A DNA stretch of 64,000 nucleotides, taken from NCBI GenBank assembly GCA_011109175.1, contig RDEW01000003.1, positions 1,337,265 to 1,401,264 on the forward strand, read 5' to 3'. Of this stretch, positions 1-24,728 are shown piece by piece. Origin of the DNA: Dicyema japonicum (lineage: Eukaryota; Dicyemida; Rhombozoa; Dicyemidae). Both the position numbers and the translations under genes were made by a program. The stretch's first letter is position 1. Each line of letters starts with the position of its first letter. Below the pieces are notes generated by a model. The model made no database searches. It was not told where the DNA came from and saw nothing but the letters and a program-made list of their open reading frames with translations.

Positions 1-719
1 TCCATCTTTAAACCCAACAGCAAAACGCTGACAATCAGTGAACAAGCAGATTGAAGTCGCCGGTCTGTAGTGCCGAGTCCACATATTGTGGACTTCTTCG
101 AGTAAATCCAAAGAGAGTGTCTACCATAATAAGACAAACTCACCTTAATGAGAAACCCATCCGTGATTATTACCAGATTATTCAGCTCAGTCGCTGTTTG
201 AAAGATCGTTGATTTTCCAGGAAATGTAAAAAGCTCAGATTTGAAGAGGACCAAATGAGTCCTTTCGTATTTTACTTCAAAAATCTTAAATTTTAGGAAA
301 TCAGTACTTTTATGTTATTTGAAGTCACAACCACGAATTGTCTCCCGTTGGAAAGACTGCATATTCCTCGAAGGGTGGTTTCAAGATTAAACACGTGGAG
401 CACTTTTCTAAGATTCGAGTCAATCAACTTTAAAATAAAGATTCCAGAATTACCAAAATCTTCCCAGTTTCGGAGTTCCAAGCGAGTATTCTGTCCATAC
501 TAGGAAGAACTGGCAGACAGGCGTTTACTTTCTCAGGAAAGACCTCTGAGAAGTTTTCCTGGATGACATTAAGGAATCCACCATTCATTTCATCGTCAAT
601 TACAAAAATATTCTATTTGGATAGCCAAAGATTACTTCGTGGTCACTAGTTTGAGAAAATGTGACTATCTTCCGACCAAGTGTAATGACTCGATCAACCT
701 CAATGGACTGAGTTAACAT
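1..719 (-). CDS. Beta-propeller (WD40-like) protein, N-terminal part, five exons
   Basis: The start is an ATG at 719-717 in frame with all later exons. Exons on the minus strand are 719-636, 612-454, 427-308, 284-144 and 120-1, and the gene runs off the window. The introns 613-635, 428-453, 285-307 and 121-143 are 23, 26, 23 and 23 nt, all GT...AG and all phase 0. The joined frame gives about 208 residues without a stop. It alternates hydrophobic beta-strand segments with turns, for example ILAWNSETGKIL, GRQFVVVTSNNIKIF and RFAVGFKDG, as in WD40 blades where a strand ends in a W- or F-containing turn. The closest resemblance I see is to ribosome-biogenesis or scaffold propellers, but I cannot name the orthologue. 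The exon model is well supported by frame restoration; the family call is an inference. Confidence 0.6.
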
Positions 720-996
720 AATATCTTTATCGATGGATTTTTGGAAGTGGAAGGACTTTGACGTTATGTAAAATTTCAATAATTTCCATAAATATGCAGA
801 TTTGTATGAATTGATTTGTTTACTGCATTATTAAGTTAAATTTCATACGTCATTCACTAACTTTTATCACCATGCAACATAATTTTCAAACAAAGTAATA
901 GTTTTTGGTTCATCCACAAAAAGAATTTTAGGCGGCAAACTTATTTATTTATTTAAAATTAATAAAAGCTTTTAAATTTTATTAATAAAAACAATA
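720..996. other. AT-rich spacer upstream of the propeller gene
   Basis: Very AT-rich with runs of TTAAT and ATAAA. No coding frame or RNA gene is visible. It presumably includes the promoter of the minus-strand gene that starts at 719, but I see no recognisable core element. Confidence 0.4.
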
Positions 997-1574
997 ATTA
1001 ACAAAATTTAAGTGCATAATTAATAATTATTTTTAATTAAATAATTAAATTGTCAAACTCTCAACAATGCACAGCCACAACGTGTCTTATAAGAAGGGTA
1101 TACATCACTCCTCTCAATTCCTATTCTTGAGACCACACTGGATCCCAGAAAAGCGCACGAGGAGAAAATGAGAAATATGATTGAGGCCTTCGAGATCACT
1201 TAATTAATTTAGTAATTAAATTAACTATTGGTGTTCTTGGGTTAATAATAATAATGGAAGGTCTAAGGGTTTTTTTTAATGTCCAATTGGTATCAAGCGC
1301 CTTTATGACGGCGAACCACATGACATCCTATAAAAATAAGCCGTGTCACATAATTAGTTTGCTTTGAAACCTTTTAGGTGATCTTTGGTTTTTAGATAAA
1401 TAAATTTTAAATTAAAAATCTAAGAGAACTGTTTAACTCTGTCAGAGCTGTTTTCAATTTCCATCCACCTCGCCGAGAGCAATCGATCTACGCTAGAAAC
1501 TTATATTTACCGTCTCAGATTAATAATAGCTGACCTCTTAGTTATAGTGAGGCCAGTGTATCTTAACTAACTAA
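997..1574 (+). mobile_element. LINE 3' end, copy 1, ending in a TTAAC-type tail
   Basis: The part from about 1061 to 1130 is nearly the same DNA as the 3' end of the reverse-transcriptase ORF of the LINE at 56162-56780; both contain the stretch around CAGCCACAACGTGTCTTAT. It is followed by a long untranslated tail ending TTAACTAACTAA at 1563-1574, next to an N at 1575. This makes it a 5'-truncated non-LTR element with a short-repeat 3' tail. Copies 2 and 3 follow directly. Confidence 0.75.
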
Positions 1575-1575
1575 N

Positions 1576-1947
1576 ATTAACAAAATTTAATTGCATAATT
1601 AATAATTATTTTTAATTAAATAATTAAATTGTCAAACTCTCAACAATACAGAGCCACAACGTGTCTTATAAGAAGGGTATACATCACTCCTCTCAATTCC
1701 TATTCCCGAGACCACACTGGATCCTAGAAAAGCGCACGAGGAGAAAATGAGAAATATGATTGAGGCCTTCGAGATCACTTAACTAATTTAGTAATTAAAT
1801 TAACTATTGGTGTTCTTGGGTTAATAATAATAATGGAAGGTCTAAGGGTTTTTTTAATGTCCAATTGGCATCAAGCGCCTCCATGACGGCGAACGGACGG
1901 ACGGAAAAATCTTTATTAGGCAAAAAACAAATGTTAAGTAATCAGGG
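1576..1947 (+). mobile_element. LINE 3' end, copy 2, truncated
   Basis: It repeats copy 1 from its first base (997 corresponds to 1576) with few substitutions, then diverges at about 1891. There it is replaced by a short segment with GGACGGACGG and AAATGTTAAGTAA, which resembles the reverse complement of other TTAAC-tailed ends in this window. It is bounded by single N bases at 1575 and 1948, so the arrangement of copies may reflect scaffolding rather than the genome. Confidence 0.65.
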
Positions 1948-1948
1948 N

Positions 1949-2368
1949 CACGAGGAGAAAATGAGAAATATGATTGAGGCCTTCGAGATCACTTAACTAA
2001 TTTAGTAATTAAATTAACTATTGGTGTTCTTGGGTTAATAATAATAATGGAAGGTCTAAGGTTTTTTTTAATGTCCAATTGGTATCAAGCGCCTCCATGA
2101 CGGCGAACCACATGACATCCTATAAAAATAAGCCGTGTCACATAATTAGTTTGCTTTGAAACCTTTTAGGTGATCTTTGGTTTTTAGATAAATAAATTTT
2201 AAAGTAAAAAATCAAAGAGAACTGCTTAACTCTGTCAGAGCTGTTTTCAATTTCCGTCCACCTCGCCGAGAGCAAGCGATCTATGCTAGAAACTCATATT
2301 TACCGTCTCAGATTAATAATAGCTGACCTCTTAGTTATAGTGAGGCCGGTGTATCTTAACTAACTAAC
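1949..2368 (+). mobile_element. LINE 3' end, copy 3
   Basis: It starts inside the shared sequence at CACGAGGAGAAAATGAG, just after an N, and runs to TTAACTAACTAA at about 2357-2368. It is the 3' two-thirds of the same element as copies 1 and 2, with scattered substitutions. Confidence 0.65.
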
Positions 2369-3473
2369 GTTGTCATTTAATTAAAAAATTCAACGAGAAG
2401 GGTTATGGTTAAGACAAAAGATCGGAATAGCCATACTCCAAGGGAACTCGTTCGCAATTCACGCAGCAGGCTTCCTCAACTGACATTTGTTTAATTGTTA
2501 AAAAAAAATTTTTGTTAACAAAATTAAAAAATTTATTTAAATAAAATATTTTATAAGATAAAAGTTAATAGCTACAACTTTCATAAACTGAGTTCGTATG
2601 ATTTCACCCTGAGTGCTCAGGGAGAGCCATTGTGTTGTTCTAACCTCTCCCTTGTAATTAGACGTGGTTTTAATTTTCTTAATATCATCTTGTTCTATCA
2701 ACTATATAAATTTAATATGCTGATATAGATAAGAGGTGGTGGAATAATAATTGAGGAAGCTCTAACTCGCAGAGACTATGCAAGAACTGAGAATTATCTC
2801 TCATGATTGAAACCCCAGTGTTCTGGGCAAACCATGTGTTGTTTTAGGCTCTCTTTGTGATGAGGCATGAACTTAATTATTTTAATTTCATGCTGTTTAT
2901 AATATGTACCGTAAATATGCTTACATAGTTAAGAGGTGGTCGAGTGATAGCTGAAAAGTGAAGTGGCTCTTAGGCTTAGGTTTTGATGGACTCTAACAAT
3001 AATCACCAAGATTACTCGAATTATTATTAACAAGGAGGAATTATCTCTTGAATTATTCATCAACCTCTGGAAATCAAGATTGAGGATTAAAGTGATCCGA
3101 TTCCATTGATTATTCGATGTCCATCCATTTACCGCCTCTCCTTTCAAGTGAATGAAATCGGTAACTAACAAAAACCGGAAACACTAAGAGATCAGTCAAT
3201 TTGCGGTGGAGAAATCGAAGGTGTGTCGTGAAAGATAAAAGACTACTTGTTCGAGGAAAAAATTTGAAAACAGTCCAGTACTAAATACTTTGCTTCTTTA
3301 TACAGTTTGTCTTGAATTAAAATTATTAATTAACGAATATTGTATTTAACGTCATTATAATAAAGATGAATATTTAAAGTAATAATTTTAATTAAAAAAA
3401 ATTTAAATTATAATAATAATAGTAGATTTATAATTTAAATAATTATCAGGCCATATGTCATCTGAGTACAGTA
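2369..3473. other. Spacer with no recognisable gene
   Basis: AT-rich sequence with two loosely related segments around 2580-2720 and 2790-2940. Both contain a phrase like CATGTGTTGTT or CATTGTGTTGTT and later AAGAGGTGGT, so they may be an old duplication. No homology-supported frame is seen on either strand. Confidence 0.35.
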
Positions 3474-4239
3474 ATGATTAAAACTAAGGAAATTAAAAAA
3501 GAAGTTGAAAATTAAAATAAACGACGAGGAGAATAATTTCATCGAAAATTACGATTCCTCACTCCGTCTTTCCCCCAATATTCCTTTAGACACAATCCGC
3601 ACCTTTATAAATCCCCCCTCAGAAGCGTGCTATCGGGAATGGCTCATTTATAACCGTAAAGTTTTGAATAATTTTAGTGTTCACTTTCTGCGAGAACATT
3701 GGCCTAATTTTCAACCCAATTTCTATTTTCTGTGAGGGACACTGCGAGAATATGCCGGCTTCTCCCACGTTCTCATTCTTAAGCTATAATAGCCGGAATT
3801 ATCAATGGGTGGATTCAAAAGGGAAGCTAAAAAGCTACTCAGCCTTCAAGTATGTCATTATGGCTCTGGACATGATCGACAATTCCATGGAAGACCCCTC
3901 CTTCGAATCAGGTTTCACTATTCCCTCATTTCAGAGACAAACTTGAGCTCATTTCACACCAAGATCGCCAGTTTGTTCGAACTGCTCTTTCGGGTCCTCT
4001 CGCACATTCTTTTCGTCCATTACCAGAAGTTGACCGAAATGGACCTCAACGGTTACTGTAATCTGATCTTCGTCCATTTCATGCTGTTTGTGGAACACTT
4101 CAATCTCGTTGGGGCCGATGAGTGCTCCATTCTAAGCAAAAGTCTCTCAAAGTTCTTAAATGAAGGCCAAAAGCCTGTTGAGAGCATCATGACTCTTGAG
4201 TCTGATAATTATAATTACTCAATCAATGTGAATGATTGA
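3474..4239 (+). CDS. MOB2: MOB kinase activator, MOB2-like
   Basis: MOB proteins bind and activate NDR/LATS kinases in Hippo-type and cell-polarity signalling. Removing a 22-nt intron (3656-3677) joins REWLIYN to LFTFCENIG, matching the MOB2 stretch around NEWLASNTTTFF. Removing a 23-nt intron (3912-3934) joins the SFES end to ETNLSSFHTKIASLF. The zinc-site region reads FCEGHCENM, corresponding to FCTxxxCxxM. The C-terminal half, FRVLSHILFVHYQKL then FVHFMLFVEHFNLVG, matches the MOB core with its HxxxxH-type histidines in modified form. It resembles MOB2 more than MOB1, MOB3 or MOB4. The start is uncertain. An ATG at 3474 works if a 25-nt intron 3504-3528 is removed; otherwise translation begins in the exon after it. 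The stop is TGA at 4237-4239, with AATAAA downstream at about 4258. Confidence 0.75.
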
Positions 4240-4362
4240 TTTTTGGCTTTTGCCGTCAATAAATTATTTTTTCTGTACAATAAATTTTCATCTGCCTCGT
4301 CCTCGTGGAATTTTAGGTGGATGAGCTGTGACGCCACTTGAACTATAAGTTTTATTTATTAA
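4240..4362. other. 3' flank of the MOB2-like gene
   Basis: AATAAA-type signals occur at 4258 and 4279, plausible for polyadenylation of the upstream gene. Nothing else is identified. Confidence 0.4.
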
Positions 4363-4575
4363 CCCAGTTTCCACGGTCGCCTATGTAGGGAACATCCAAT
4401 CTCATAAACAAGTATATCCAGAACCAACGGGAATTGAAGCATACTTCAGTTTTTTCAGCTGTGGGAATTTGTCAGTAATGTGGGTGAGAGGAAATTGTCC
4501 TTTTCTTACCATCCTGTCACTGGCATCTGAGACAGGTGGATCACACGACGCCAGTCTAGTAGAACGAAAGTAGAC
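4363..4575 (+). repeat. Dispersed repeat R1, copy 1
   Basis: It shares ordered blocks with 10407-10612: CCAGTTTCCAC, a CATCC block, a TGTGG block, a TCCTTTT block and GACAGGTGGATCACA followed by GACGCC. Similarity is interrupted by indels. A weaker third copy is at 46600-46775. It is likely a non-autonomous element. No terminal repeat or polymerase III box is clear. Confidence 0.5.
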
Positions 4576-4797
4576 AGCAGTAGATGAAGAGTGTAGTTTG
4601 ATATCCTAACCATAACCTACCTGAGTCTTGATGTTATATTCCTTTAAGTAGGACATTCATATTTTAAGAATCTTAATTTGTTGATACAGCTTTATTTGTG
4701 TTGTCTAAAATTTTGTGTTTTTCGGTTTTTTCTATCTGATATTGTTATTGTCTCCGTTTTGGTCACTCGCTTTGGTAATGTCCACCATTCTAACAGT

Positions 4798-4870
4798 TGA
4801 GCTTGTAGCTTAGTGGCTAAGGTATATTAACAACACTTTGTGGGTTCACATTCGTGTTATGCCAGACGTG
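4798..4870 (+). repeat. Weak tRNA-like sequence (possible SINE head or tRNA pseudogene)
   Basis: It contains TAGCTTAGTGGCTAAGG, which fits a polymerase III A box and D arm, and GGGTTCACATTC about 30 nt later, a B-box-like element with a mismatch at the conserved A. The acceptor and anticodon arms do not fold convincingly. It is not a functional tRNA. Confidence 0.35.
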
Positions 4871-6159
4871 TTGTGTTTGACCTTGATTGATTTTTGAATT
4901 ATATACCTAATTAACCTTTTCAAGTTTAACTGCTTCTTGTAAAATCACCTTGGCCCTTAAAATCTACATGATTCTTGTACTAAAGTCGTGTGTTACACTC
5001 TTTGCGGAGACCGCGGGTAGTTCAACTTCAAGGAAGCAAAGACCCCCTTCTACGCATCCTTTTGACAGTTTGTGAAGACTTTTACTAATTGAGGTTATAT
5101 TTGACCAAATTATTCATTTTATTTCCCAGGGTCACTGATTAAAGAATGACCTCATCTCATGACTAGTTAACCACGTGGTTAATTGGTCAGAAAATTTGTG
5201 TAACGATGTAGCTCTATTGCTCATAATATCTACTTAGCAGTAAACAGATGAAAGTCCTTGTCTTCATTCTTTTTGTAAACATGAAAGAGGTGTTCAATTT
5301 TTTGAGTTAAACGGGCGTTATAAAAAATTAATTTTACTTAAAATTTAAATAAATAATGTGACCTGTTTCCATAAAATGATCTATATTTATTGGACGGGTG
5401 TTAAGCTGCTACGAGACTCATTAGGCCATTTTTCACTTTAAGTGTCAAAAAAGTCGCAATCTCAAAAATATGGAGACGTGGGTGGTGTTATATATTGCTC
5501 ATCTCCTGAGGTAGCGTTAAATGAAACCCTAGACCATACTTCCATAGCTCAAATTAACATTAAATTATTGGATGGGCATAACATTTTTCCTTAGATACAG
5601 TTTCTATAAGTGACTTGTTTTCTAAATATAAAAAACAAGTCAGTAGGACCCCGTTCTGGAGCACTAAGTGCGTCAAAAACCGAAGGTGCTCCAAAATCCG
5701 AGAATAAAAATAATTTGCTTAACATCAAAATTAATAATGAATAAGCAAGTTTTATTAAAAATAATCCGTTATTTTTTCCCTACATTCTTTGTTTTTTAAT
5801 ATCTTCAGATAAAATCTTACGAAACTCGTAATATTTTGTTAGAGTTTGTGGCATAAATTTATGAATACCTTTTTCTAATTCATTCTATGGACAATATTTT
5901 CGATGTAATTTTCTTCAATTGAATGAGCATTGTCGTGTTTTAATATTCTATGTTCATTTATTTTCTGCCAACAATTTTCAATCAAAAATTTCCAAATTTG
6001 GGAATTAATACTTAAAAATAGGCATGATTCACAAAGTGCCCCAAAATCCGAGGGTGGGGTTTGGCTTGGGGCGTGGTCGGACTGTAATATGTACCACATA
6101 ATTAGTCATAAAATATTAATTAAAAAATTAAACATTAATTGTTTATGAATTTTATAGAT
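4871..6159. other. Spacer without a supported gene
   Basis: Short frames occur on both strands at 5875-6148, but neither matches a family I recognise. Two related phrases, GTGCTCCAAAATCCGAG near 5685 and GTGCCCCAAAATCCGAG near 6035, suggest a small repeat. A short inverted pair, GGAGCAC and GTGCTCC, flanks about 20 nt near 5656-5690. Confidence 0.35.
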
Positions 6160-6600
6160 TTCTTTATTTAATTATTATGGCTGTGAGTAGTGATTCTATT
6201 TGTGCAAAAATTTTGAGTTTTAAAGACTGGGCAAGACATGAGCACATATTCACCAAAGCAATCCGAAGACTGGTTTGGAACTACCTACTGGATGGCCTTC
6301 CCCCTCTGGTTGATGACTCGGAGACAACCCTAGACAGAGACACGAGGAAGAGTCTAGCACAATTACGCTCTGGACAGTTCCTCCTAAAAGATGAATCGGG
6401 CTCTTGGCTTCAGACCAGTTATCATTGATTTTTCAAAGAACTTTCTCCTGCCCAGGACCTGTGGAAACTTGGGATTCTGGATTCCCCCAGTTCCTTCTCT
6501 TAACTCTTCAACTAGATATGATCCACCTGTTCATTACCAAAGGATCTTTTGCTCTCCCCCACTTCACTAATGAGGTTCCCATAATTCAATGATCGGATAT
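6160..6600 (+). pseudogene. LINE reverse-transcriptase C-terminal remnant
   Basis: The frame at 6177-6428 contains RDTRKSLAQLRSGQFLL. It resembles the RxxRxxLAQLRSG segment found after the reverse-transcriptase domain of Jockey/CR1-type non-LTR elements. The frame is broken soon after 6428 and nothing downstream to 7100 is convincing. It lies just upstream of PDE4, in the same orientation. Confidence 0.5.
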
Positions 6601-7100
6601 TATCATCTCTTTCTCCTGGTTCTGGTTAAACTTGTGTCTGAAATTCCAAGGTCTCTACTTCTGCCCACGTGGTACTGGATACATTTAATAGCTACTGTTG
6701 ACCTCTCAGTGTACCCTTGTTAATAAATTAGATTGTTCTATTGGTCACGTGGACTAAATACATCAATCACTAAGTCAATTAAGTCAAAGTTATTTTCTAG
6801 GACGTCATATCTTAATTGGTTCTTTGTGATTCCGGATGGCTCCAAGGTAGAAAGACAAATCCACAATCTAATTAAGGCATATCTCTACAGGGTTGTTATC
6901 GATAAGCGGGTCAGTGACGTTGGATTACGCAAATATTAAGATTTAATCTTTAGTTGATATAATTTCGAACAGATTTCCACGAAAATCGCTTATCGCAATC
7001 AAAATTCAATTTATAATTCCGACTAACGCTATCACAATTTATTGCACGTTCGATCTAACCCGACTATTCCTGGTGTCGCCAGTCATAATAGGAGAATACA

Positions 7101-8978
7101 ATGTCCTTTACTACGGAGAACCAAAAAACCGTAATCGTACGGAACAAGGAACGAACTTCCCAGCGATACGTCAAGAATTCGTTCATATACAGAAATGACC
7201 AAAAATGTTGTCCAACTAGAAAAAGCGAAAATCTGACGTTATATGTTATCGGACTTGTAGTGATAGCATGCCAATCACCCCCCTCTCGATCATTCTGGAC
7301 CGAATTAGCAAGACCAGGGAGAAGATCGCTAATGTGAAAAGTCTGACCGCAAAGTTGCTTCATAAATAATTTTTAGCCCCGAAAAACCGAACAATCAAAA
7401 ACGTAAACAAAATAGTAAATTGAGCTTTAGTGGCTGTCGAAATTTTGACCAGCTCAGAGTTGGAGTTGGAAAAATGCATAGAAAGTTTACTTTCTCTCCC
7501 CATGGACAAGTCAATAAGGGAGATGACCTCGGATTCCGTAGATCACTGACTAAAGCTTAGTTCCAAAAAATTCTGACGAATGAACTGTCCTATATAAAGC
7601 ACATGCAACCCAATGGCAAGCAGGTGACACAATATATCGCTGAAAATTTTACTGGTAAGGTAGTTGGTGACCCCCTAGAATCGGGAGATTCGATCCCCGA
7701 AGAACCTATGGTTAACACCGCGAAAATATCTCGTCATAGAACCTTCAGAAGTGAAATAAAATTCAACAACGATATCAGAATTTACCACAAAGAGAAAAAA
7801 CTGACAGTTTTCGACTTCCATGACTTTTAGGTCATACCAAATATCGACAAGTGGGGGATCGACATCTTCACTATCGAAGAACAGTTCCCCAACCGAGTCC
7901 TAACTGTGATTGCCTACACTATTTTCATAGTAGACTTTAATTCTTTAGCAGAATTTTAATCTGGACGCCAAACTGAACATTTGTCGGGAAAAATGGCAAA
8001 GTTTCTAGTGCAGTTGGAGGAAATGTACCACAACGATGTTGTTTACCACAACTCTACCCATGCGGCTGATGTTCTCCAATGTGTCAACGTCTTCTTGAAT
8101 TTTCCTCGCTTTGAGGTTGTTTTGTTAATATTTAATTTATTAAATAATATTTTAATTATTTTTTAATTCAATTTTAGGGGGTTTTTTCTGATTGTGAAAT
8201 TTTTGCCGCTATTTTGGCTGCTGCTGTGCACGATTTGGATCACCCAGGATTTAGCAATCACTTTCTTATTCGAACAGGTACCTCCCGAATTTCTACTCAG
8301 ATTCAAATTTGGCGACAACTTACAACGATATCTCCGTTTTGGAGAACCATCACGTGAGCACTGCCTTCAAGATTATCAAAAAACCGAGCCTTGACATTTT
8401 AAGCTCACTCAAGAAAACTGAGCAGACTTATGTGAGGAAAATAATGATCGAAATGGTTCTGGGCACCGACATGTCCAAACATTATGACCACGTGGCCCAA
8501 ATGCTGACCATCTCTAAAGCCCTAGAAACTGACCCTAAGAAGTTCTTTCAATCAAGCACAGAGCGGATCAAAGTAATAGTCCCTTTGATTTTCTTAGGTT
8601 CTGAAATCCATGATACACTGCGCTGATATCAGCACTTCTGCCAGGCCCGGTCACATCTATAAAAAGTGGGTGGACCGGGTGACAAATGAGTTCTTTATAC
8701 AAGGGGATCTGGAGAAGCTCTTGGGCTATGAACCGAGTCCCATGTGCGACAGAAATAATATTGACGTTCAACAGTCGCAGACCACCTTCATTGAATATGT
8801 AGCCTTACCGCTGTGGGAAAGCTGGGCGCAAGTTGTGTACCCTTCAGCTGAGGAGATGCTTGTTTATATGCAAGAGAATAAAGTCAATTTGGGAGACGTT
8901 ACCTTTAATGAATACAAAATTAATTATGACAAAATTATTGATGAATATGGACTTAAGTATTATACAGAGACAACATAA
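7101..8978 (+). CDS. PDE4: cAMP-specific phosphodiesterase, PDE4 long form
   Basis: Hydrolyses cAMP to AMP. The start is ATG at 7101 (MSFTTENQK). Introns are 7238-7260, 7354-7376, 7403-7430, 7538-7560, 7807-7830, 8116-8177, 8278-8300 and 8573-8597, of 23, 23, 28, 23, 24, 62, 23 and 25 nt. The join between 7930 and 8008 is uncertain; GT...AG options of 22 and 26 nt exist. UCR1 shows [12 protein letters not shown] then [22 protein letters not shown]2 shows [26 protein letters not shown] and [12 protein letters not shown]. The catalytic domain shows [71 protein letters not shown] and the invariant-glutamine segment [19 protein letters not shown]. The metal-binding histidines and aspartates are all present. 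The stop is TAA at 8976-8978. Both UCRs make it a long isoform, which is known in other animals to be controlled through PKA and dimerisation. Confidence 0.93.
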
Positions 8979-9270
8979 TTTGTTAATATTTGAATTAATT
9001 TTTATTTATTTAAAAAAATGACTGTTAAGAATGTGAGTCGTGCCTGCTTTCATGATTCATACATTTAGGAATAGTCTTTAGTGCGACTTATTGGCTTACA
9101 TTCACATTTCTTATTAATTGCTCCTTAAATCTTGGTGAGTCATTTGGAGAGTGGTAAGGGAAGGGTGTAATGACGTGGGAAGCAAATATGTAGTTCTTAA
9201 TCTAATTGAATATAATTTTTCGAATTTAGATGAAAACACTGCAAATTTTTTTTACATATCGGAAATTGTC
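8979..9270. other. 3' flank of PDE4
   Basis: AT-rich downstream sequence with AATTTTTATTTATTT. I see no gene. Confidence 0.35.
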
Positions 9271-9560
9271 CTTTAATAATACAGACCGGTTAACGTCCAG
9301 GGCCGCCATGGTTGAGTAATCGGAGACTCAGTGGCCATCGCGAGAGGCAACGCTAAGTTTATTATGTCGGGGGTTAATAAAGAAATGTTAGTTAAGTTAG
9401 TTAAAAACTTCTTCGCGCAGCCCTAAAAGGGTTTCGCTTGAGCCATGCTTTACAGCTATCCTCCTCGCCCACGCCATCTTGTTTTTGGCCCAATCGGTCG
9501 TAAATTGATGACAGCGACGACCTGGATGATGTTCGAATGAGGGTCAGAAACAAGATACAG
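9271..9560 (-). repeat. Possible LINE/SINE 3' end with TTAAC-type tail
   Basis: On the minus strand it ends TTAACTAACTTAACTAACAT (complement of 9385-9404), the same tail type as at 1563-1574 and 13206-13218. The adjacent sequence is unusually GC-rich for this window and can form an imperfect hairpin around 9311-9350. No coding homology is seen. Confidence 0.4.
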
Positions 9561-10330
9561 GTAAAAAAATTTTATTTATTTAACACCCAAGACCACGTTA
9601 AATTAAAACTAACTATCACGTGATCTCGATGCGCTCCGCCAAAGTCCTCATTCTTTCCCGGTGCTTTTCCCTTGTACCCACACAAGCTCGTACAGGGCGG
9701 CTGACTGTATTTGTAGGGCCACCTTCCCGCATGCCGAAGTTTTGTTTAATGAGGGCCTCCAGAGTAGTCGGTCCGGTTCTGTGTCTTTCACAAGACAACC
9801 GCTCCGTCATTCTAAAAGCCTTCTATTGAACGTCCACAATTTTCTTAGTGTTCGTCCATGATAATGAAGGTCCCCACGAAGCACACGCGTACGAGAAGCA
9901 TGGTTCGATGTATTGATTGTAAATGTTCATCAAGACTGGGTGGGTACTTGTCTTCCATATTCCAGATAAACATTTTAATACATTGATCCTCTTCTCGCAC
10001 TTCATAACAACGTTTGCCACGTGTGGTGACAAACATAAGTGTGTATCCAGTGTCACGCCCAAGATCTTCTGACATTTGTTGAGGGATTTCAACGTTGTCC
10101 AATTTTAACTTGACAGTCATCTTCCCCAACTTTTTGTCCAACGTAACATAGACGTGACCGACATTCTGGAATTTATCGTGAGTTGAGTCTGTCCAGGTAA
10201 ATTTGTAATCTTTCTGTAGCATTTTGGATATCTCGATCACCCGAGGCAAAAACAATGTCGTCCGCATATGTGAGTAGAATATCGTTATTGGATTCTGCCA
10301 GATATTTTTTTATTAACCCTGGATACACCG
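9561..10330 (-). mobile_element. 5'-truncated Jockey-like LINE (RT C-terminus and 3' tail)
   Basis: On the minus strand the reverse-transcriptase active box reads LLTYADDIVFASGDRD (YADD at about 10267-10256), so both catalytic aspartates survive. Frameshifted pieces follow: KCQKILGVTLDTHLCLSPH (the LGVTLD box), YIEPCFSYACASWGPSLS and HRTGPTTLEALIKQN. It ends with a TTTA-repeat tail near 9566-9582. The same family is present at 31150-32770 on the plus strand with over 80% similarity by eye. The element is inactive because of frameshifts and the missing 5' part. Confidence 0.8.
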
Positions 10331-10406
10331 AGAAAAAAGTTTTTTTTTATTTATTAAGAAGTTTTTTTTATTAAAAGAAGTTAAAGTAACCAACTAATTA
10401 AGTGCA

Positions 10407-10612: not shown

Positions 10613-10794
10613 AAGCAAAAAATTTAAGCCAATTAACCACGCAGCACCAGATGGCGCCACGCGGCAAGTCTGCCAGATATAAATTGAATAAAGTAAAAAC
10701 ATTAAACTTGAATGAAAAAAATCAGTTATTTTTATTTATTTAAAAAAATCAAGATTAAATTAATTTTAATTTTTAAATAATTTAAAATTTAAAC

Positions 10795-11387
10795 ATGTCT
10801 TCTGGATTCACTCAAGGTGTCAAATATGCGACTAAATTTTTCAAAAGGGAGCAGTTAAAACGATTGACGTGGGTTGAACTAATTCGATTAAAGTTTAGCG
10901 GTTTTATGAGAGAAACAGGACTATTCACAAGCTTCAAATATTGACGTCAAGAAAAGCCCTAACAAACTCAACACGTGTAAGAAAAGAAAAGAAAGAGTCA
11001 AGTAAAATGGTAACTACTCTCAACTAACCAAAGCTGTTTGAGACCCGTTTGCTGGGTGCCTGTTCAGAATTTAATGTCTCCGCCCATGACGTCCTTGAAG
11101 GTCTTTCTAGGGTATTTTGGTGACTTATTTAGTCAAATATTTTCATTGACAGAAAAATACTATCAATTTTGGCAATTTATGAACCTAGAACATTCAAGGT
11201 TCACTTTTTTAAATATCATCTAAATTTAATTTATTGTTATTTTTCAAATTTATTTTTAAATTATTTAATTTAATTATTTTAGACCCTGGTGGATGTCGGG
11301 TCTACTGCTATGATGAACAGTGGGACAAGTTTGTCTCATGTGCGAGGAATTACTGAAAATATTATAAATAAGGACTTGCTTGGTTGA
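10795..11387 (+). CDS. MRPL20: Mitochondrial ribosomal protein bL20m
   Basis: Structural protein of the mitochondrial large ribosomal subunit. Exons are 10795-10892, 10919-11009, 11034-11111, 11133-11198 and 11283-11387, and introns are 26, 24, 21 and 84 nt. All phases agree, giving 145 residues compared with about 149 in vertebrates. The start is ATG at 10795 (MSSGFTQGVKY), so a mitochondrial presequence is short or absent. The middle exons give RVRKEKKESSKMLFETRLLG and then IDRKILSILAIYEPRTFK. The second matches the L20 signature NRKxLADLAIYEPxTFK almost residue for residue. The C-terminus TLVDVGSTAMM corresponds to SLAALAS. The stop TGA is at 11385-11387, and an AATAAAA signal follows within about 10 nt. 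No single long reading frame reveals this gene; it appears only when the tiny introns are removed. Confidence 0.82.
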
Positions 11388-13218: not shown

Positions 13219-13312
13219 AATGGTAGTTTGAATCAATTCTAAGTTTTCCTTATAATTTGAACAAACTAGTAATACAATTTAGTACATGGAAATAAAATTT
13301 TATATATACCAC

Positions 13313-13612: not shown

Positions 13613-16588
13613 TTTGCTCACTGACTCACATACAAGCAAAAAGAAAAGAACAAGAAGTAAGAGCAACTTCGATATCTTAGATAATGTCTTATTTAATTAT
13701 CACAATTGTTTTTTACTTTTTAAATAAATTAATAAATAATAATTTAATTTTAAGCATAGTGCGATTACAAACATTATTACTCTTTGGTGGATGGGCTTAA
13801 TTATGCCACTTTCTTCTCCCCCTACAAATTTGGACTGATGACAACTCACCTAGAATCAGACTCGAAAGTGAGCAGATTTTTCAAAAAGTCTAAGCGACGA
13901 ACCAGTCACCTTCAAAAAGTCGAGGATAAATATACCACTTCATTCAAGAGTAACGCAGGTCAATAACCATGCTGAACTGTTTTGGATTGCTCATTGTGAA
14001 GTGAAGAGAGATAACCAAGAGAGGCATTGGGTTATCGAGCCTGCTCTTTACAAATCACTTGGGGAAATACGTTTACAACTCTAATAGCGGCTATTCTCGA
14101 CTGAAAGGAACCTTTTAGTAATTATAGTTGTTTATGTATACTCCTATCGCACATGGTAACATTTTAATAAGGTGTCAATATAGTTAGTCCTATCTGACCT
14201 TTATCCTCCTAGAAGAATCATCGACCCACTACTTTTTCTTCGTTTCTTTGCGGAGATCAATCAACTAAACTTGTTATCCGGTACTAAAAAGGCTAATCTT
14301 ATGTTGCAATACACTAAACCACGTCAGAATGAGGTTCTAAGATTATTTGAAATTGTAAGCGACATACGATGCAGCGAACGTTACCACCACTCTATAAGTT
14401 CTTGTAATTTTTATACAATCCACCAAATCCTTCATATTTTACTTATTGGGAAGATACCACTTAGTCTCCATAGCACTTAGTCATTATGCCTTATATCAAT
14501 CGGTTTTTCCCTCTTTCGCAAAGAATCGATAATTTTTGCAATCAAGTGATTATTTTTTTCCTTTAAATTGAATGTATTTGTTTAAATGGAATCAATAAAG
14601 TCAGCTATTATGAACAGATCTCCATCATGACCTTCGAGAATTGAGTACATGGGAGTTACTTCTCATAATCACTATTTCAATGTTCTAGAAAAGCCATCGT
14701 CTCATTCTAGACTCTCGCTTCCTCTGTCCTGCAAGACGATTGAATGGTTAATTGATCGGAAGGTTGTGACGAAGATGTGCATTCATTGCACAGAATGTCT
14801 ACTTAGCTTATTGTGAATGAGAGCATTTGTCTTCTTTCTCATAAGTTTGGACTAAGAAAAAAAATATAAAACTAGAAATTTTGAGTTAGCTACGATTGAT
14901 ATGGTCAAATTAAATAGTGACTGAAAATAACTAGTAATAGATATATACACTATGTATTTTAGTAATAACTCAGATCAAAGTGTTTTCTCGTACTTCAACG
15001 AGATCGCTTCTAAAATCATCAACGTTAATACTTCAATTTCAAAAATAATAACTACAACGAAACAACATTAAACACGTTATGTTCAAATTTAATTAGTTAA
15101 AATTTTATTGGTTTTAATTTTAATAAATAAATAAAAGTTTCTTTTCCTCGAGTAGAAAAATAATCTTAACCATTTATATTGTTTTGACCTGCATCAAGGT
15201 CAGCGGATCTTGGTTAATCATCTATTCTCTTTACCTATTGGTTCTCTGCTTGATAACAAAAGCTTTCATACCACGGTTGTCTTACACCTTGTGTTTGAAA
15301 TAAGTGAGTTTTGCAGAAGTCGTTGGGAGAAAATTATTAACAGTTAAAGATTCATAATCTACCACGAAAAAGGATTCAGAAAGGTTTTTTTCTAACTCTT
15401 AAACAAAACGAGCTCCGGAGAGCTGTTTCTACAAATAATGAATTTTTACCTCTATGGACAATAAGATGTGTAGACATTTGACGTATTGACGATCTTTGGT
15501 GTGGGATGCAAAATACGTCGACACCCTACTTACCTTATAATTGTCCTCGTCAGCTTGTGAGGATTACAAACATGCCGACTGAGGAACTGAGAAAACTAAA
15601 TAAATACTGTTTGTGTGACCGTTTCAGCTTTCCGCTATTTTCCGCTAAACCCATGGAAAGATTTCGACTATCGCTAAAACTACAATTGTCTAAATCGAAA
15701 ATGCTATCAAGACTCTGTCATCAAGACACATAGAAGCAACCAGGGTTTCGACATTGTCCGTCTCCATTGTCTCTCGGAACTACTTACTCTTAAGGGAATG
15801 CGCTCTAAAGAACTACTACCGGGCAATAATAAATTCCAACTCAAAAATACAACTTGCTTATCTAAAATCGGTTTTTTCTTTAAATTAAGTATTTTTTAAA
15901 TTACAAGGGTAAATTCAGTCACAAATTAATACTCGTTAAAGTATATAAACTTTAATAGGCACAATAGACTTCCCTTCAATAGTCAGATTTTCGTTTCTAT
16001 CAGAATTTGACTGAAAATTCTTTTCGGCGTTTTTGTCACTGGATTTTTCACGACTATTCCTTACCGACATAGTCCATTCCAACCAGTGTCTTTTGGCCAT
16101 TATTATACGCCTATATTATTGGTTTTATAATGAATTTAAGCTCTAGCTGTTCAAATTTTAAACAATCAATATTACGACCATTAAAATCAATCACTGTTAA
16201 CGTCAAGGGCGAAAGGTTCTTCTGCCCGTGGCGAGCGTATGATAATCATCCCTTTATAACTAACTTAAAAAGTCCGGACTAAATAAATTATAAATTTTTC
16301 AGCATCGATTGATCGTTTTCCTCATGTTTTTTCTACACTCACATATCTAAGCAGTCTCTCAAGGCATCATTCTTAGGTTCTCTAAGCTTTTTCCTGAGGC
16401 GATTTTTAGCCCCGATGGGATGTATTCGCTTCGGATCAAATTAAAGGAAACCAATATAAACAAGAAATCAAAGCAGAAGACTGTAATATAGAAAAACAAC
16501 CATCGCTTCGCATGTTGTGCTGCGCAAGCGTGAAATCATCGTCATAACAAGGAGAAGGTCACTGATAATGCTTTATCACGTAGAGCAA
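13613..16588. other. 3-kb stretch without a supported gene
   Basis: Short open frames at 13784-13966, 14271-14480 and 15506-15733 show no family resemblance, and tiny-intron joining did not extend them. The composition is AT-rich throughout. A short conserved exon could still be hidden here. Confidence 0.3.
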
Positions 16589-16701
16589 TAAGGGAATTCA
16601 AAGAGAACACGCATCTGATATCGATCAAATCCAGTGTGCTCNNNNNNNNNNNGGGAATTCAAAGCGAACACGCATCTGCCATCGATCAAAACCAGTGTGC
16701 T
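16589..16701. repeat. Sequence duplicated on both sides of an assembly gap
   Basis: GGGAATTCAAAG and about 48 nt in total occur at 16590-16641 and again at 16653-16701, with few differences, on either side of an 11-N run (16642-16652). This pattern suggests two overlapping contig ends placed end to end, not a biological tandem repeat. Confidence 0.7.
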
Positions 16702-17733
16702 TCAAGTCTTCATCGATGTCAATATAAAATTGTGATCACTAGCAGTCGATCTTGTCTATGAAGAAAAAACATGAAAAAAGTGAGTATAACGTAGTAATAT
16801 GAACTATATGGTTTGGATCTGCTGCTCCCTACAGCGTGCTGCCCGGATACCCTACCCTATTTCATCTATCTTAAATCTATCTACGTATTTTTTGCAGGTC
16901 ATCACCTAGTTTCCAAGCAATTAACCACTCAACTTATGGAATTCATTAATAGAGTACAACCATTCGCATATCTCATTTTGATTGTTTGATAAATTCATTA
17001 TTAGGATTCTTATGACGACCACATTTAATTAGAACGAATAATTTTTAGAAAAGAGTTGCGGACTAAAAAATTTTCTTAGGGATTTTCATATGCTGTGATA
17101 TTTTATGGGGAATTCTTGTGCTTTTATGCAAGATTTATAACTAGTTTATGTTCAGTTGTATTAGATGGAAACTTTATGGAATGAGAGCTTTGCGTATAAG
17201 TTTGTTTACTTGAGAGTCAATAAATTCAATTATAAAAACATAGAAGCTATGATCTATATGGTCCCTGGGTTGATGAAAATCCTCTCGAATGACCAGCAGC
17301 TTCGTAAAGTTTTCTGAAGGGAGTGAGATAAGATTTCCAAGTTTAAAAAAAAGCGTAAGAGAACAGTCTGAGAGTTATGAATGTTTCCACAGAAAAATGA
17401 ACAAAAGTCAAATCACCAGAGAAATCAGCATACTTCCGAAATTTAGATGGAACAATCGAAGAAAAACTGTCGAGTAAAGTGTGCATCAAAAACATAGCAA
17501 TAGAGATAGGAGCCAGATCAATATTCGACTAACAACTTGGTTAGCGTGAATTAATAGAAAAACTTGCTTTTCAATTTTCGATAGCATAATATTTTAATAA
17601 GAAATATGTTATTTATTAGAATATTTAGGAATCTTAATTAACAAAATAATTAATAAAAATTTAAAATTACATTTAACTGTTGTTTGTCGTGGTTGGTTTT
17701 TTGTATATTATAAAACTAGTTATTCCCAAATAT
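16702..17733. other. Spacer upstream of TPR
   Basis: No convincing gene. Bases 17289-17477 are open but unlike anything I know. The last 100 bases before 17734 are very AT-rich, and I see no core promoter motif. Confidence 0.3.
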
Positions 17734-20700
17734 ATGACAGAAACCGCAGACGGGGAACTCCAACTATGCTTAACTACTGATGAGTACAACTATCTTCCTC
17801 ATTCTATTAAAAACAAGCTTACAAATCTAGTAGATTCTAAGCTACAAGACATCGGAAAACTTAGGAAGACGTTCCTCAAGAAATTCATTGAAAAGGGTAA
17901 ATTCAACTCAACATGAAAGAACAAAACTTGTTGGAAGCGGATTCCTTAACACGTGAGCAGAGATATTCGACTCAAGGATTCCATAAGGACTTGGAAAGTT
18001 AGCAGTTTTAGCTAATTTTCAGAGGAGGTTGAGGAAATTCGCAAAATCACGGAAAAACTGACCTCGGAAAAGTACGAGTTGCTAGGAAAACTGGAAATAG
18101 TCGAAAGTGAGGGAATATCTTCAAAGGTAGTAATTTTACTTATAAAGTACCAAATTGAACGGTACGAGACTGAGAAGACAAACCTTAGAAGTCAAGTTGA
18201 ATATCTGCAGACTGAATTGCATAAAATGAACAGTGAGGTGTTGTCCTCTAAGCAGCAATACGTAGTTCGTTTGTATTACTGTAGAATATTGACTCCATGC
18301 ACGTGAGGATTGAACTGGACGAACAGAAAAACCAGGTACTCTTTAGTATTTGCTTTATAATTTGGTTACCATTGTTAGAGTCGTGTTTGTATGAGTTTTA
18401 GCTATATGACTGATTTGTAGATGTTTGGTATTTTGGCGGTTATTTTCGGTCATTTAATTTTAATCTATACATTTATAACCACTTAATAATAATAATTTTA
18501 GTGCATGTGTAGTTATTGACTTGTTTTAGTGTTATGTTGATCTTTTTATATTTTATAGTGTTTTTTGTTGTTATATTTATTATTAATTACTACTCAAACA
18601 ACACTCATATTACATTCAGCCTTATGTTCCAACAGCCTTCTCAGCCATCATTTCCTTAATGCTCATTCGTACTGTGACAAATGAATTAGATTTTGTTATT
18701 TAATGTTTGTAGCAGGCGCTTTCACTTTAATCATAATACTTATACTCATGACACACTATGCTACTCTATTGTTAGTAGACGATCTATTTAGTTCCATTTT
18801 CATCTGTTTTACTCTTTTTACTGTTCTTAGTTTATTAAATTTTTATTAATTTAATACATTATTAATTAATTAATAAAATGGAAAATTTTGTTATAATAGT
18901 TTCGATAATTTTATTTACCCTTTTATAAATTTTACATATTTTTGGTATTCCGCCTATTTTGCGTTATTTTTAACTAAAAATGTTCTATTTTGATGCTAAT
19001 GTTTCAAATTTTACATATCATTCATGAATTTTTATGCTAGAATGCTTTACTGAGACAACAATTGGAGTCGATGAGGGTAAAATACGAAGGTTTAGAGAAC
19101 AACTATGAAGATTGTGTTAAAAGGATGGCTGAGTCACAACAAATACAGAACCAGCTAGAACGTGTCTTTCATGAAGAACTCTCAGCGCAAAAACGACTAT
19201 CTGACACTCTTCAGTCATCCTCCTATAATTTTCTGCAAACTAACCAGACATTATCCAATAAACTGGCAGATTCACAGAATAGGTTCAAAAATCTTCTACA
19301 AAGTTACCAAATTGATTTATTTCAGAATACAGCCAACTCGAACACCATTCAGTCACAGAAATTCGAAATTTAAGGGAAAATATCCAAAATAAAGGTTTTG
19401 GTGGTCATTTATGTAGATTGTGAGATTGAAGAATTGACAGAGAGACTTAACACTGCGAATGATTTAAGCGCCAAAATTGGTAAATTTGTTGCTTTATAAT
19501 TAGCCATCTCTGAGGAGGAACTCTCTATGCTGTGCCCGACTGCATATGCCAGTCAAAATATGCTTAAATCCTCAAAGAATCTAACTGAGGTGGGTTTACC
19601 TATAACTCTAGATATATGCTGAATATTCTAATATTAATGAAGCCTTTATGAGAGAAAGAAGTGAGAATATTCGCCTGACAGAGTCTGTGTCGATACTAAT
19701 GCAGGTTTGTACTTTAATTCCCTCTCATTACATGATCTGTTAATTTACTCTTTAATCTTGTTGTTGATATTTACAAATAATCATACTAACTCAATCTTGC
19801 AGTGTGACCGTAAGGCTGGCGGACGCTTTCCCTTTTTGATTTGTAAGGAAATGCCTCAATGAGCCAGCTCCTCTCTCGCTCATTTCCACTTTGTTACCTT
19901 TTATTAGCTTAAATTTTTCTGTCACGTTGATATTAATTTTATATCTAATTTTGCTGAATTGGACTTTGTATTTCTTATAAATGTCATCTAATCAAACTTA
20001 TTGTGCTTTTCTAGATTTCCTTAGCTTTATTAACTTTAATCTGTTGATAGCTTTACTTATGTCTCCCATTAAAATGGTCAGTGCTCATCCTCTTATTTCT
20101 TAGCGATTCTTATATAAACTTTTTCTTAGTTTTACTTTAGCTTTATGTTGGATTATTGCTATTATATACTTTTTGGTCTCAAAGTTAATTTGTAGGAAGC
20201 TGAGGACAAGGCAATGCAGTATAAAGAAATTAAAGAGCATAATTCAAGACTAATGCAATCCATGAATGAGACTCAAAGCAATATGGAAAACTACTTCCAA
20301 GTATATTTTTGCCTTATTCTAGCAATTACAACGAGCAAAGGCTAATGCTGATAAAGTGACTCAAATGAACGACAAAATGAAGGCTGAATGTGGACAATTT
20401 AAACACCAAAACAACGACTTGTCGCTCCAAGTGCGAATTCTTCTCAAACAAATCCACGAATTACGTGGAGGAGAAGTCGTTAATGACATTGACGACTCGG
20501 AACCAGTCAGAGATAATTCTGTGGAACAGATTATAGCCGGAAATTTGGTAAAATTCAGGTTCGAATGATTTTTAATATAAGAACGATCGAGGAATTACAA
20601 ACCCGAAATTTGCAGTTGCTGTCCATTGTGAGGTATATGAGTGAGGAACACGGGGAAACTGAGAAATATGAGGAAATGTTAAACGAGAGCAGATTGAGGA

Positions 20701-23700
20701 TTGAAGAGCTGACCAAATCCAATGAAGAGTTATCCTCACTGAGAGTCCGGGACTCTGACTTGGTATTTCCGTGATTTTTACCTAAGCTGGATGTGATCTC
20801 CAAACAACGAGATCTCTACCACTCAATGCTTTCAAAATCTGAAAGTGTTCAAAATATGGACTTTTCCGTTCATTCAGTGAACGAGAGTGTTAAAAACACG
20901 TGTCTTTCATTGCATTCAATTGAAAGTATGATGATCAATGAAGAATCATTAGTTGACGCTCCCAACACGTGTATTGAAGACGGAGATGAGACTACAAGTC
21001 ATCTAAGAGACCAATATGAACAAATCAAGCTGAGATTCGAGCAATATAAGGAGAATCAGTCAGAAAATGAAAAGTAGACTATAAAATCACATTTTAGAAT
21101 ATTACAAGAGGAAATTGACAGATTGCGGTGTATAAACATGGATCTTAAGCAAAGCAATGGAGAGCTGTCCTCTAGAGTATTATCCCACTAATAAAATAGC
21201 TTGAATTCCACATTATGAGATTTGCCACTATAGAAAACGACATTAAGTTGTATCAGGCGGATATTGAGGTACTAAGGAGACAATATGAGGACAAACGAAC
21301 ACATAATGTACTCCTCGAAGAGAAAATCGGGAAATTGAACCAGGTTAGTGGCTCCATTTCTATTGAAGGACATTAGTGATGTAAGAAAGCAGTTTGATGA
21401 AAGCAAACTGTCGGCAATTTCAGTCAATAACGAAAGAGATGGCCTTATCAGTGAAAATAATAGACTTTTGTCTGAAAATTGTGCCCTTAGATCGCAGCAG
21501 AGGGCCTTTAGTTCCATTGCCAACGATATTCTACATATAAAGTCTGCTGTGGAAAGGTAGCTATTGTAAACAAGCAGAAATGACTCTGATGATCGTATGG
21601 CTGTAGAAAAGAGAGTCCAAGATCTTTCCTTTGACTTGATGGAGTCGAGGAATCTCCTATCTAAAATTGACCGAGAAAGCTCAGCCGAAAAGGCCACTCT
21701 CTTGGTCGTGTTTAGTACTTATTACAGATAAGGACAGAAGAGCTTGAAAATCAACTAGCAGAAGTTGGAAAAGACCTTGAAGAAGCAAAGTCGACTATAA
21801 TTTCGTATCAGAGTGAGGTTTTTGTTTATAAGTGACTCAAGATTGCTGCCTTGAGGATTAGATTCGGTACTGAACAGGAGATAGGTTTGTTTGCCCCAAT
21901 AATGAAAATAGGAGACATTGAGGGCGAAATGAGAGAGGAAAAGCTAAATATGACAAAGGAAATCAAACTCCTCAGAGTTGAGTTGGAAGGTTGAGAAATG
22001 GAAGCAATTTAGGGACAAAGTCTCAGTTAAACAGCGCTCAGAACTCTGTCAGGGAGTTCACTAGCTTGGCAAACCAGTACGAGACCGCACTGCAAGAACA
22101 AACCAGCATTTGTAGGGAAATTGAACAAAATTATAGCTTAAAGGTCAATTCTCTACAAATCGGTGGATTATAATAACCATTTTAGCGCTAAAAAAGGCAG
22201 AGGATGAGCTTACCGTGGTTTCCACTAGCCTTTCTATCGCGGAGACCGAAAACCTTGCTAATTTGCAGAAACTAGAGGAATCTGTAGGAAATTGGATTTA
22301 ACCTAGAAAACTCAGATGGAATCCATGAAGAATGAATATTCTCAAATATCTCTCCTAAAGGAAGACTTTAAAACCAGGGAGGCTGAAATGGTGGAGCTTC
22401 TTCGAACGAGAGATGAGATCATATGTCAGAGACAGGAACGTTACCAGGATGAAGTCAAGAGACACGCAGAACGGATATCAGAAGTGGAGGAACTAAAGAA
22501 AGAGGTATCTCAGTGATTTGACCTTCAGGCTGAGGTTACGACTGCCATGTCAGCCGATCTTCTACTACAGTACAATTCTGTTAGGGAGGAGCTGAACAGT
22601 GTTAATGTATGCAATTTTTTTTACCAGCAGAGTCGAGTTGGACTGGAGAGGGATAGGCTGATGAGGAGTGTTGCTGACATGGAGGAGAGAAATAATGAAT
22701 TGACTGAGATTAATGGTTCTCTTTTATTGCAATTGGAAGAGGTTGTGTCTGTGGGTTTAGTTTTAGGTGGTATCTTTGTCCGGTAAGGGTGGGACTTCTG
22801 AATATGAGGAATCTGCGCTTTTGGATAATCGGTTTTCTCCCGAGAAGTTGATGCAAGTGATTGGGTTAATTTTGTTTATTATTTGAAATTTATATAAATC
22901 AATTAAAGATAGCCAACTTATTAAAGTTATTTAAATTTATTATTATTTAATTTATTTAAAATGTTAATTTTTTTATTAAATTTAAATTAGATTATTTTTG
23001 TAGATTTTTACGTAAAAAGAAAGATTTAATATCGGCACAATATGAGCTATTATTGGCTGAGAATAACCGTAATATGACGAACCTATCAATCGCCCACAAG
23101 GAAATAGAACTGTCACAAAAACGAATTTGTGAACTCAAGTCTACCATTGAGGTATCTTTATTTATTAACCAGATTAACTCCCAACAAGTTTCCGAGTTCT
23201 TTAGGGTCAAGAAAGAACTGGAGGACCTTCAGGACGTCCTCAAACAGAACCGAATCCTGGTCTCTGAGAATAAGTCTCTCGAGGATGCTATCCTAAAGAA
23301 GTCATCAGAGGTATAAGCTGAATAACGTTCAGAATGAGAGACTTAGAAGAATCTCTGATGAAAAGGAAATGCTTGTTTCTCAGACTATGGCTCGCTGCCA
23401 GGCTTTAAAAAGCACTAATAGTCAGATTGTGAGCGAGAATGCCCGCTGGAGGACACGTGTTTCACATTTGGTCAACGAAAACGAGGATTTGGAGCAGAAT
23501 AGGCTAAAAGAGAAGATGTGAGTGATTCCTTTGACTTGTAGCTCCCAATGTGAGCACCTAGAATCTGAAGTGGAGTCCCTTAGGCAGTGTTTACTGGACG
23601 TGAAAGCTGAGAATGCCGGTTTGACTGACGAAAGGCAGATTCTATCCCTGCGTGTTGAAGAACTGATGGAATCGAGCACTTCCCAGAGGTTCTGTAAGTA

Positions 23701-24728
23701 AATGACTTTCAGTGCTTCAATCGAGGAACTCAATTCCAACAATGCCACTTTATCTGAGCACGTGGCTAAGGTATCTGTCAACGATTATTGTAGCTAAGGA
23801 AACTGGGTCGTGATTACAGGGATAAGTACGAGAAGCTTAGGAATGAAAGTGAGACTGAGAATGTTGAGAAGAAAATAGCTGTATTCTACCCACGTGGTGA
23901 TTTGTAGGACGCAGTTACAGAATGTGAGGAGAAGGCCTTTAAGATGGTGGAATCTATGAATAGTCAGAATTCACTTTTAAGAGAAGAAATAATTCTTCTA
24001 AAAGATGCTGCTAAATCTCTTGAAGGTGAATTGGCGGGAATATTCGTAGAAAAACAGTCTGAACTCCTCACACTTTTGGAGGACAAGCAGTGTCGCATCA
24101 ACATCTTGGAGCTTTCTGTTTGGTCCTTACTTATTTTAGGTTAACCGACATGCCCTGAGTAATCGTGCTACCACTTTCGAGGGAATTCCTGAAGCTCAGA
24201 CTCTTCCAGTGGTAGCGGAATCAGACTTACCTGAGAAAAGGACTGTGGAAGTGGACAGGAATTAGTAAATTTGTAATTAATACTGCAGTGATGATAATCC
24301 ACTACTATCGAAGAGACTAAAGATGATTCCTGAGGTTGTTGAGGAATGGGAGGAAGAAGAACTCGACTATGAACCTTCTGAGGGAGGTTTGCCTTGCTGG
24401 TGACGTTTTAGAACTTCCATGTTGTGAAGAAGTAATCGTATTTGATAGTGTGGTTTGTGAAGTCACTGATTTGTAGTGGGATACTGACCAGAATCCAGAA
24501 TATGAGGGGGAAGCACCTGCTGAGAAGTTGATTAACCCCCCGAAAGAGGTAGGCAGGCTTTTTAAGCTGCTAGAATGAGGAACCTGTGATTGACTGTGTC
24601 GACGTGGAAAAGTTTTGGCGTGATTTTTGATTTTTAGTATCAAAGCAGAGGATGTTTGTACGTTTGTGGATCAAAGTGATAAGCCGCCTTTGAAGAAGGA
24701 GCGACGTTTGAAGATTTGTTATTTGTAG
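17734..24728 (+). CDS. TPR: Nuclear pore basket protein TPR (Megator/Mlp orthologue)
   Basis: TPR forms the nuclear basket and acts in mRNA export and spindle-checkpoint scaffolding. The start is ATG at 17734 (MTETADGELQL) and the stop is TAG at 24726-24728. I estimate 1,600-1,700 residues over more than 25 exons. The order matches vertebrate TPR: LPHSIKNKLTNLVDSKLQDI near the N-terminus, FHEELSAQKRLSDTL, SEEELSMLCPTAYASQNMLK, LQVRILLKQIHELRG, NLVKFRTIEELQTRNLQLL (the join needs a 23-nt intron, 20559-20581), SKQRDLYHSMLSKS, and KLMQVIGFLRKKKDLISAQY (across a 139-nt intron, 22865-23003). Nearly everything is heptad coiled coil. The C-terminus is shorter than in vertebrates, acidic (EEWEEEELDYEP), and ends with a basic KPPLKKERRLK that could be a nuclear localisation signal. 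Most introns are 21-26 nt; 18336-19040 and 19705-20195 are long exceptions. Confidence 0.9.
18336..19040 (+). other. Long TPR intron (705 nt)
   Basis: It separates ELDEQKNQ from NALLRQQLESMRV in phase 0, beginning GTACTC and ending TATGCTAG. It is about 30 times the usual intron length here. It is AT-rich; I find no embedded gene or confident snoRNA boxes. Confidence 0.7.
19705..20195 (+). other. Long TPR intron (491 nt)
   Basis: It separates SVSILMQ from EAEDKAMQYKE in phase 0, beginning GTTTGT and ending TTTGTAG. A GC-richer patch at about 19800-19890 could be an old repeat or a small RNA; nothing confirms either. Confidence 0.7.

Follow-up and report, generated by a model that had tools for sequence, protein, structure and literature searches.

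Very short spliceosomal introns in the genes of a probable dicyemid genome

The subject of this study is a 64,000-nucleotide (nt) stretch of DNA, called the window below, together with the nuclear genome to which it belongs. With a probability of about 0.95, the genes of the window are cut by U2-type spliceosomal introns with GT..AG ends that fall in a narrow band around 23 nt, and the genome is that of a dicyemid or a very close spiralian relative. Position, length, and GT..AG ends are given here for the introns; removing them restores conserved protein, and the genome carries genes for the U1, U2, U5, and U6 small nuclear RNAs (snRNAs) and for Prp8, RED, and Slu7. Very short introns are a known peculiarity of dicyemids, with publications going back to 2007, and the value of this work therefore lies in its confirmation by a homology-based test blind to splice sites and in a larger set of introns.

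Introns recovered without reference to splice sites

A first-pass annotation had proposed, over positions 1 to 24728 of the window, spliceosomal introns of 21 to 28 nt from frames that were mended when GT..AG segments were removed. Picking such segments for their ability to mend a frame is circular reasoning, and tests that ignore splice sites were therefore used instead. A purely codon-based gene finder served poorly: it collapsed onto the coiled-coil composition of the TPR gene, split or missed genes under milder training, and read through some stop-free introns whose length was a multiple of three. Homology alignment blind to splice sites replaced it as the main test and was applied to genes across the genome (64,672,829 bases in 191 contigs).

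The clearest result came from Prp8, whose gene (L035 and L036) lies on contig C87. It was aligned to a profile built from 12 Prp8 proteins, with any deletion of 1 to 150 nt priced as a frameshift. The resulting path held 35 deletions of at least 10 nt, all of them 20 to 26 nt long, along with five gaps in whole residues. GT..AG ends were available at the best score for 30 of the 35 deletions and within one score unit for 32, whereas random placements matched to the strict set gave a mean of 0.47 and a maximum of 5 in 2,000 trials. The path also contained one 5-nt event and one 2-nt frameshift, either of which may be an assembly error, an allele, or an unrecognized intron.

Kinesin genes gave a second set. 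With 17 of 20 kinesin loci aligned to a kinesin-5 profile and a tolerance of four score units, GT..AG fit 47 of the 95 deletions of 15 to 40 nt, where 2.6 would be expected; no other pair of ends fit more than 15. The recovery of GT..AG ends by alignments that knew nothing of them supports, together with the snRNAs and Prp8 described below, the view of the first-pass annotation that the introns are spliceosomal.

Length, signals, and composition

Together the two tests give 79 introns supported by homology (32 from Prp8 and 47 from kinesins), with a mean of 23.7 nt, a standard deviation (SD) of 1.9, a median of 23, and a range of 18 to 30; kinesin introns were considered only within 15 to 40 nt, so the set is bounded at 40 nt. 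Beyond GT, the donor site carries only 0.33 bits over positions +3 to +6.

Mean intron G+C is 12% in Prp8 and 31% in the kinesins. Third codon positions show a strong contrast within this one genome as well, with a G+C fraction of 0.19 in Prp8, 0.42 in the kinesins (L045 to L064), and 0.51 in the PDE4 gene of the window (7172-8882). That these two compositional classes of genes might represent two species in the assembly was considered and dropped, the U5-binding domain of Prp8 being found at one place only.

The exons of Prp8 hold 131 GT..AG pairs spaced 20 to 26 nt apart, whereas its supported introns number 32. When pairs were filtered by G+C content and by the letters beside GT and AG, 10 of these 131 exonic decoys were left and 31 of the 32 introns were kept. 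Thus, in the AT-rich Prp8 gene, most of the visible information lies in composition and spacing rather than in motifs.

There is no avoidance of lengths divisible by three (24 of the 79 introns; P = 0.63). An in-frame stop is present in 21 of these 24 and in 34 of the 55 others (Fisher P = 0.03), so that enrichment of stops in introns that would otherwise keep the frame is suggestive only.

Spliceosomal RNAs and proteins

Consistent with spliceosomal removal, Rfam searches matched U2 (best 155.1 bits), U6 (107.8 bits), and U5 (83.2 bits) above their cutoffs. The best U1 match, at 69.0 bits, lies just under its cutoff of 69.5, and the U1 5′ end, ACUUACCUG, is present in seven of the eight copies read. 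These copies (L017 to L024) vary: the 11 U1 matches range from 45.7 to 69.0 bits, none above the cutoff, and L019 is the copy that lacks the exact 5′ sequence ACTTACCTG found in the other seven. Among the proteins, the Prp8 alignment covers almost the entire protein, RED is present (RED_N, 64.3 bits, 48 of 234 positions), and so is Slu7 (77.8 bits plus neighboring pieces). RED, together with Smu1, is reported to be required for the activation of B complexes of the human spliceosome when introns are short (PMC6692369). The presence of Prp8, RED, and Slu7 suggests that introns of this size do not need loss of these factors.

A U12 snRNA is also encoded, as a single match of 85.4 bits (cutoff, 53) at L065 1501-1629 (G000:C68:163471-163599, minus strand), with its branch-pairing region intact. 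Two genome scans for U12-type introns, defined by an RTATCCTT 5′ site and a CCTTRAY branch site, gave 2 and 8 matches, compared with 5 and 10 in the reversed control; the joined frames of the two matches from the first scan were not open. Retention of U12 snRNA with no U12-type introns detected by these scans is mildly new. A literature search on U12 or the minor spliceosome in dicyemids produced one match, PMC2483917.

Introns in the genes of the window

The first-pass annotation had named four introns, one each in the MOB (3656-3677), PDE4 (7538-7560), MRPL20 (11112-11132), and TPR (20559-20581) genes; each is located as claimed, with GT at its start and AG at its end. Joining exons across these and their neighbors restores all four proteins, as judged by Pfam or Protein Data Bank (PDB) matches, and profile searches with the joined exons matched PDEase_I, Mob1_phocein, Ribosomal_L20, TPR, and TPR_MLP1_2. 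The size range of 21 to 28 nt is not exclusive; there are cases of 18 to 20 nt and, in the window, introns of 62, 84, 139, 491, and 705 nt.

The PDE4 gene (plus strand) is open from 7520 to a stop at 8978 once seven introns of 23, 24, 19 (or 22), 26, 62, 23, and 25 nt are taken out. PDEase_I matched the joined protein of the final model with 279.1 bits, whereas the unjoined sequence was hit only piecewise, at 98.1, 84.9, and 38.9 bits. A PDE4_UCR match spanning the junction at 7538-7560 (26.4 bits; E = 1.2e-5) falls just below the cutoff of 26.9; at this 23-nt intron the blind aligner placed a 44-nt deletion over the site instead. Blind deletions of equal length lie 2 nt from the intron at 7807-7830 (24 nt) and 3 nt from that at 7930-7951 (22 nt), which would shorten to 19 nt, with the frame unchanged, if the acceptor at 7948 were used instead. 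The intron at 7983-8008 (26 nt) is the least certain, the aligner having called a 2-nt frameshift there. Blind alignment placed the remaining three on GT..AG: 8116-8177 (62 nt, 8% G+C) and 8573-8597 (25 nt) strictly, and 8278-8300 (23 nt) within 3 score units.

For MRPL20 (bL20m; 10795-11387, plus strand), the gene was recognized from PF00453 and PDB matches of the joined protein. Its four introns lie at 10893-10912 (20 nt), 11010-11033 (24 nt), 11112-11132 (21 nt), and 11199-11282 (84 nt, AT-rich). This model scored 59.4 bits against Ribosomal_L20 (PF00453), compared with only 26.2 bits, below the cutoff, for a mis-phased one, and the joined protein matched bL20m in the PDB with an E value of 6e-11. 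The MOB gene (plus strand) has introns at 3656-3677 (22 nt) and 3912-3934 (23 nt); its joined protein matched Mob1_phocein with 96.5 bits and the PDB entry for MOB2, 5ncm, with an E value of 1.8e-14.

The TPR nucleoporin gene (17734-24728, plus strand) was modeled with 41 introns of 40 nt or less, some of them doubtful, the commonest lengths being 23 and 24 nt. The TPR models include the 23-nt intron at 20559-20581. Three longer introns belong to the model: those at 18336-19040 (705 nt) and 19705-20195 (491 nt) come from the model only, and one at 22865-23003 (139 nt, AT-rich) links its two halves, with the joined frame open. The joined exons matched the Pfam families TPR (67.3 bits) and TPR_MLP1_2 (38.9 bits). 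This gene is too diverged for the homology test, and all 256 donor and acceptor dinucleotide rules were compared on it instead, each self-trained identically from a codon table that had been built on PDE codons aligned by homology. GT..AG ranked first with 209.9, ahead of 184.5 for the second rule and a mean of 112 (SD, 43) for the others; it was also first when self-training was left out (52.3 versus 46.1). A branch motif, TGAY, about 10 nt from the intron end, had by eye seemed to be present in TPR introns (6 matches there) and was dropped because the wider motif yTNAy shows no excess in the 79 homology-defined introns.

As to the proposed propeller gene, on the minus strand, it is open over 244 codons once four GT..AG segments of 23 to 26 nt are removed (121-143, 23 nt; 285-307, 23 nt; 428-453, 26 nt; 613-635, 23 nt), all four supported by the joined reading frame. 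The family match to a WD40-like propeller is weak, with ANAPC4_WD40 at 14.9 bits, under the cutoff of 22.9. The Bro1 gene of the first-pass annotation was not found, the single fragment tried having no Pfam family.

Identity of the genome and alternative explanations

That the genome is a dicyemid's, as the first-pass annotation had inferred, is the best reading of the Prp8 placement, the genome size, and the intron size. In a Prp8 tree of 32 rows (one gene, quick method), the genome fell within an 11-row spiralian set (SH-aLRT, 95) of rotifer, brachiopod, annelid, bryozoan, orthonectid, and flatworms, and stood next to the flatworms (SH-aLRT, 89). The genome and intron sizes match published dicyemid values. 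One can envision that another miniaturized spiralian, either an orthonectid or a lineage not yet described, was the source; the orthonectid Intoshia indeed lies inside the same spiralian set. However, its Prp8 is not sister to that of this genome, its median intron of 57 nt, as given in PMC6543705, is far from the values here, and the two sizes agree with dicyemids, which makes such a source very unlikely.

A second alternative is that base-call indels from sequencing or assembly break the frames and that GT..AG segments were picked as the repair. Small events of the kind this predicts are seen among the blind alignments: two of 1 to 5 nt in Prp8, three of 1 to 2 nt in the PDE4 gene of the window, and 24 that are shorter than 15 nt or frameshifts across the 17 kinesin loci. 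Nevertheless, with deletions of 1 to 150 nt all equally priced, Prp8 gave 35 of 20 to 26 nt and just two small ones, and errors would not bear GT..AG ends in 30 of 35 cases. The Prp8 test refutes this alternative as a general account, and we consider it highly improbable. Least probable of all is that the segments resemble the internal eliminated sequences of ciliates, which are excised from DNA rather than RNA, are 26 to 28 bp long, and have TA ends: although the size class is similar, GT..AG is the commonest pair of ends here and TA..TA is absent from the 8 (Prp8) and 6 (kinesin) commonest pairs listed, while Prp8 groups with spiralian animals, not ciliates, and is free of TAA, TAG, and TGA over 2,294 aligned codons (stops being penalized yet allowed).

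Several results weigh against the reading as spliceosomal GT..AG introns. In diverged genes the blind test performs weakly. With the PDE4 profile, GT..AG accounted for 3 of 7 deletions in the window gene, whose protein shares about 40% identity with its relatives and in which three events of 1 to 2 nt were also called, and for 2 of 8, 3 of 8, 2 of 5, and 1 of 10 at four other PDE loci, or 11 of 38 over the five. Two of the misses in the window gene are only 2 to 3 nt from a GT..AG placement, and the profile fits the other four loci less well (scores of 248 to 578 versus 723). Among the kinesins, at the tolerance used, GT..AG leaves 48 of the 95 deletions unexplained, and the count left out the 24 small events or frameshifts and 9 deletions longer than 40 nt. 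L058 and L063 are nearly duplicate kinesin loci with three near-identical introns in common; leaving out L063 gives 76 introns and a mean that is still 23.7 nt. The TPR result is one of rank only, GT..AG standing about 2.3 SD over the mean of the other rules. The branch-like motif yTNAy occurs in 41 of the 79 introns compared with 42.4 after shuffling, hence no excess. Finally, kinesin exons hold 360 GT..AG pairs spaced 20 to 26 nt apart against 47 introns, the decoy filter having been run on Prp8 alone.

Relation to published systems and a possible mode of recognition

Very short, uniform spliceosomal introns are what the genes of this genome share with those of Dicyema acuticephalum, for which PMC2222250, from 2007, gives a mean of 26.2 ± 1.9 nt for 16 introns defined by comparing genomic DNA with cDNA. 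The mean here is lower by 2.5 nt (23.7 ± 1.9, n = 79, versus 26.2, n = 16; Welch P = 8e-5), but the genes and possibly the species differ and our set is bounded at 40 nt, so the lower mean, while mildly new, is a lead only. For Dicyema sp., PMC6543705, which cites an earlier survey by Ogino et al. in 2010, gives a median intron of 27 bp with about two-thirds below 30, and between them that paper and PMC6736024 report 4.9 to 6.2 introns per gene in the genomes of Dicyema sp. and D. japonicum. The D. japonicum assembly is listed at 67.5 Mb in PMC6736024, compared with 64.7 Mb here, and its genome-wide mean intron of 38.2 bp in the same source exceeds our mean, presumably lifted by longer introns.

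In a 2008 survey of introns in 50 eukaryotes (PMC2483917), the 5′ boundaries of dicyemid introns are the weakest known (0.5 bits), and a branch-point signature is absent. Our independent, homology-defined set replicates that picture, with 0.33 bits and no yTNAy excess, although the definitions of a bit may differ. The ciliate Stentor coeruleus, which is unrelated, has exceptionally small introns and has retained all snRNAs; Slu7 and Prp18 are listed as undetected there in PMC9505925. Loss of spacing factors, as reported for Stentor, was tested in this genome with Slu7 and rejected, as Slu7 is present.

The introns are probably removed from RNA by the major spliceosome that the genome encodes, acting across the intron (intron definition). 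Since, apart from GT and AG themselves, the ends are nearly uninformative, site selection probably relies on the spacing of 20 to 26 nt and on composition, the latter in Prp8 and other AT-rich genes at least. A stronger version would have the spliceosome pick introns essentially by length and AT-richness, requiring a bare GT and a bare AG about 20 to 26 nt apart, with hardly any donor signal past GT, no branch motif, and intact U1 and U2 pairing regions, in what could be, given a mean below published dicyemid values, the shortest-intron animal known, one that has kept U12 snRNA with no canonical U12-type introns detected; we regard this combination as doubtful.

Introns of about 23 nt served by standard spliceosomal RNAs in an animal bear on the limits of the sequence and space that a spliceosome needs. 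They would also set a trap for annotation, as these genes would likely be broken by aligners and gene finders whose minimum intron length is set higher.

Repeats in the window

Elsewhere in the window, a segment of about 4.2 kb occurs twice in direct orientation (26196-30409 and 59812-63999) at 92 to 96% identity. Between 997 and 2367 there are overlapping, near-identical repeats (97%) with a single N at 1575 and another at 1948, possibly assembly joins. Inverted copies that are 88% identical lie at 9571-10142 and 32175-32765, and the minus strand of the former resembles a reverse transcriptase fragment.

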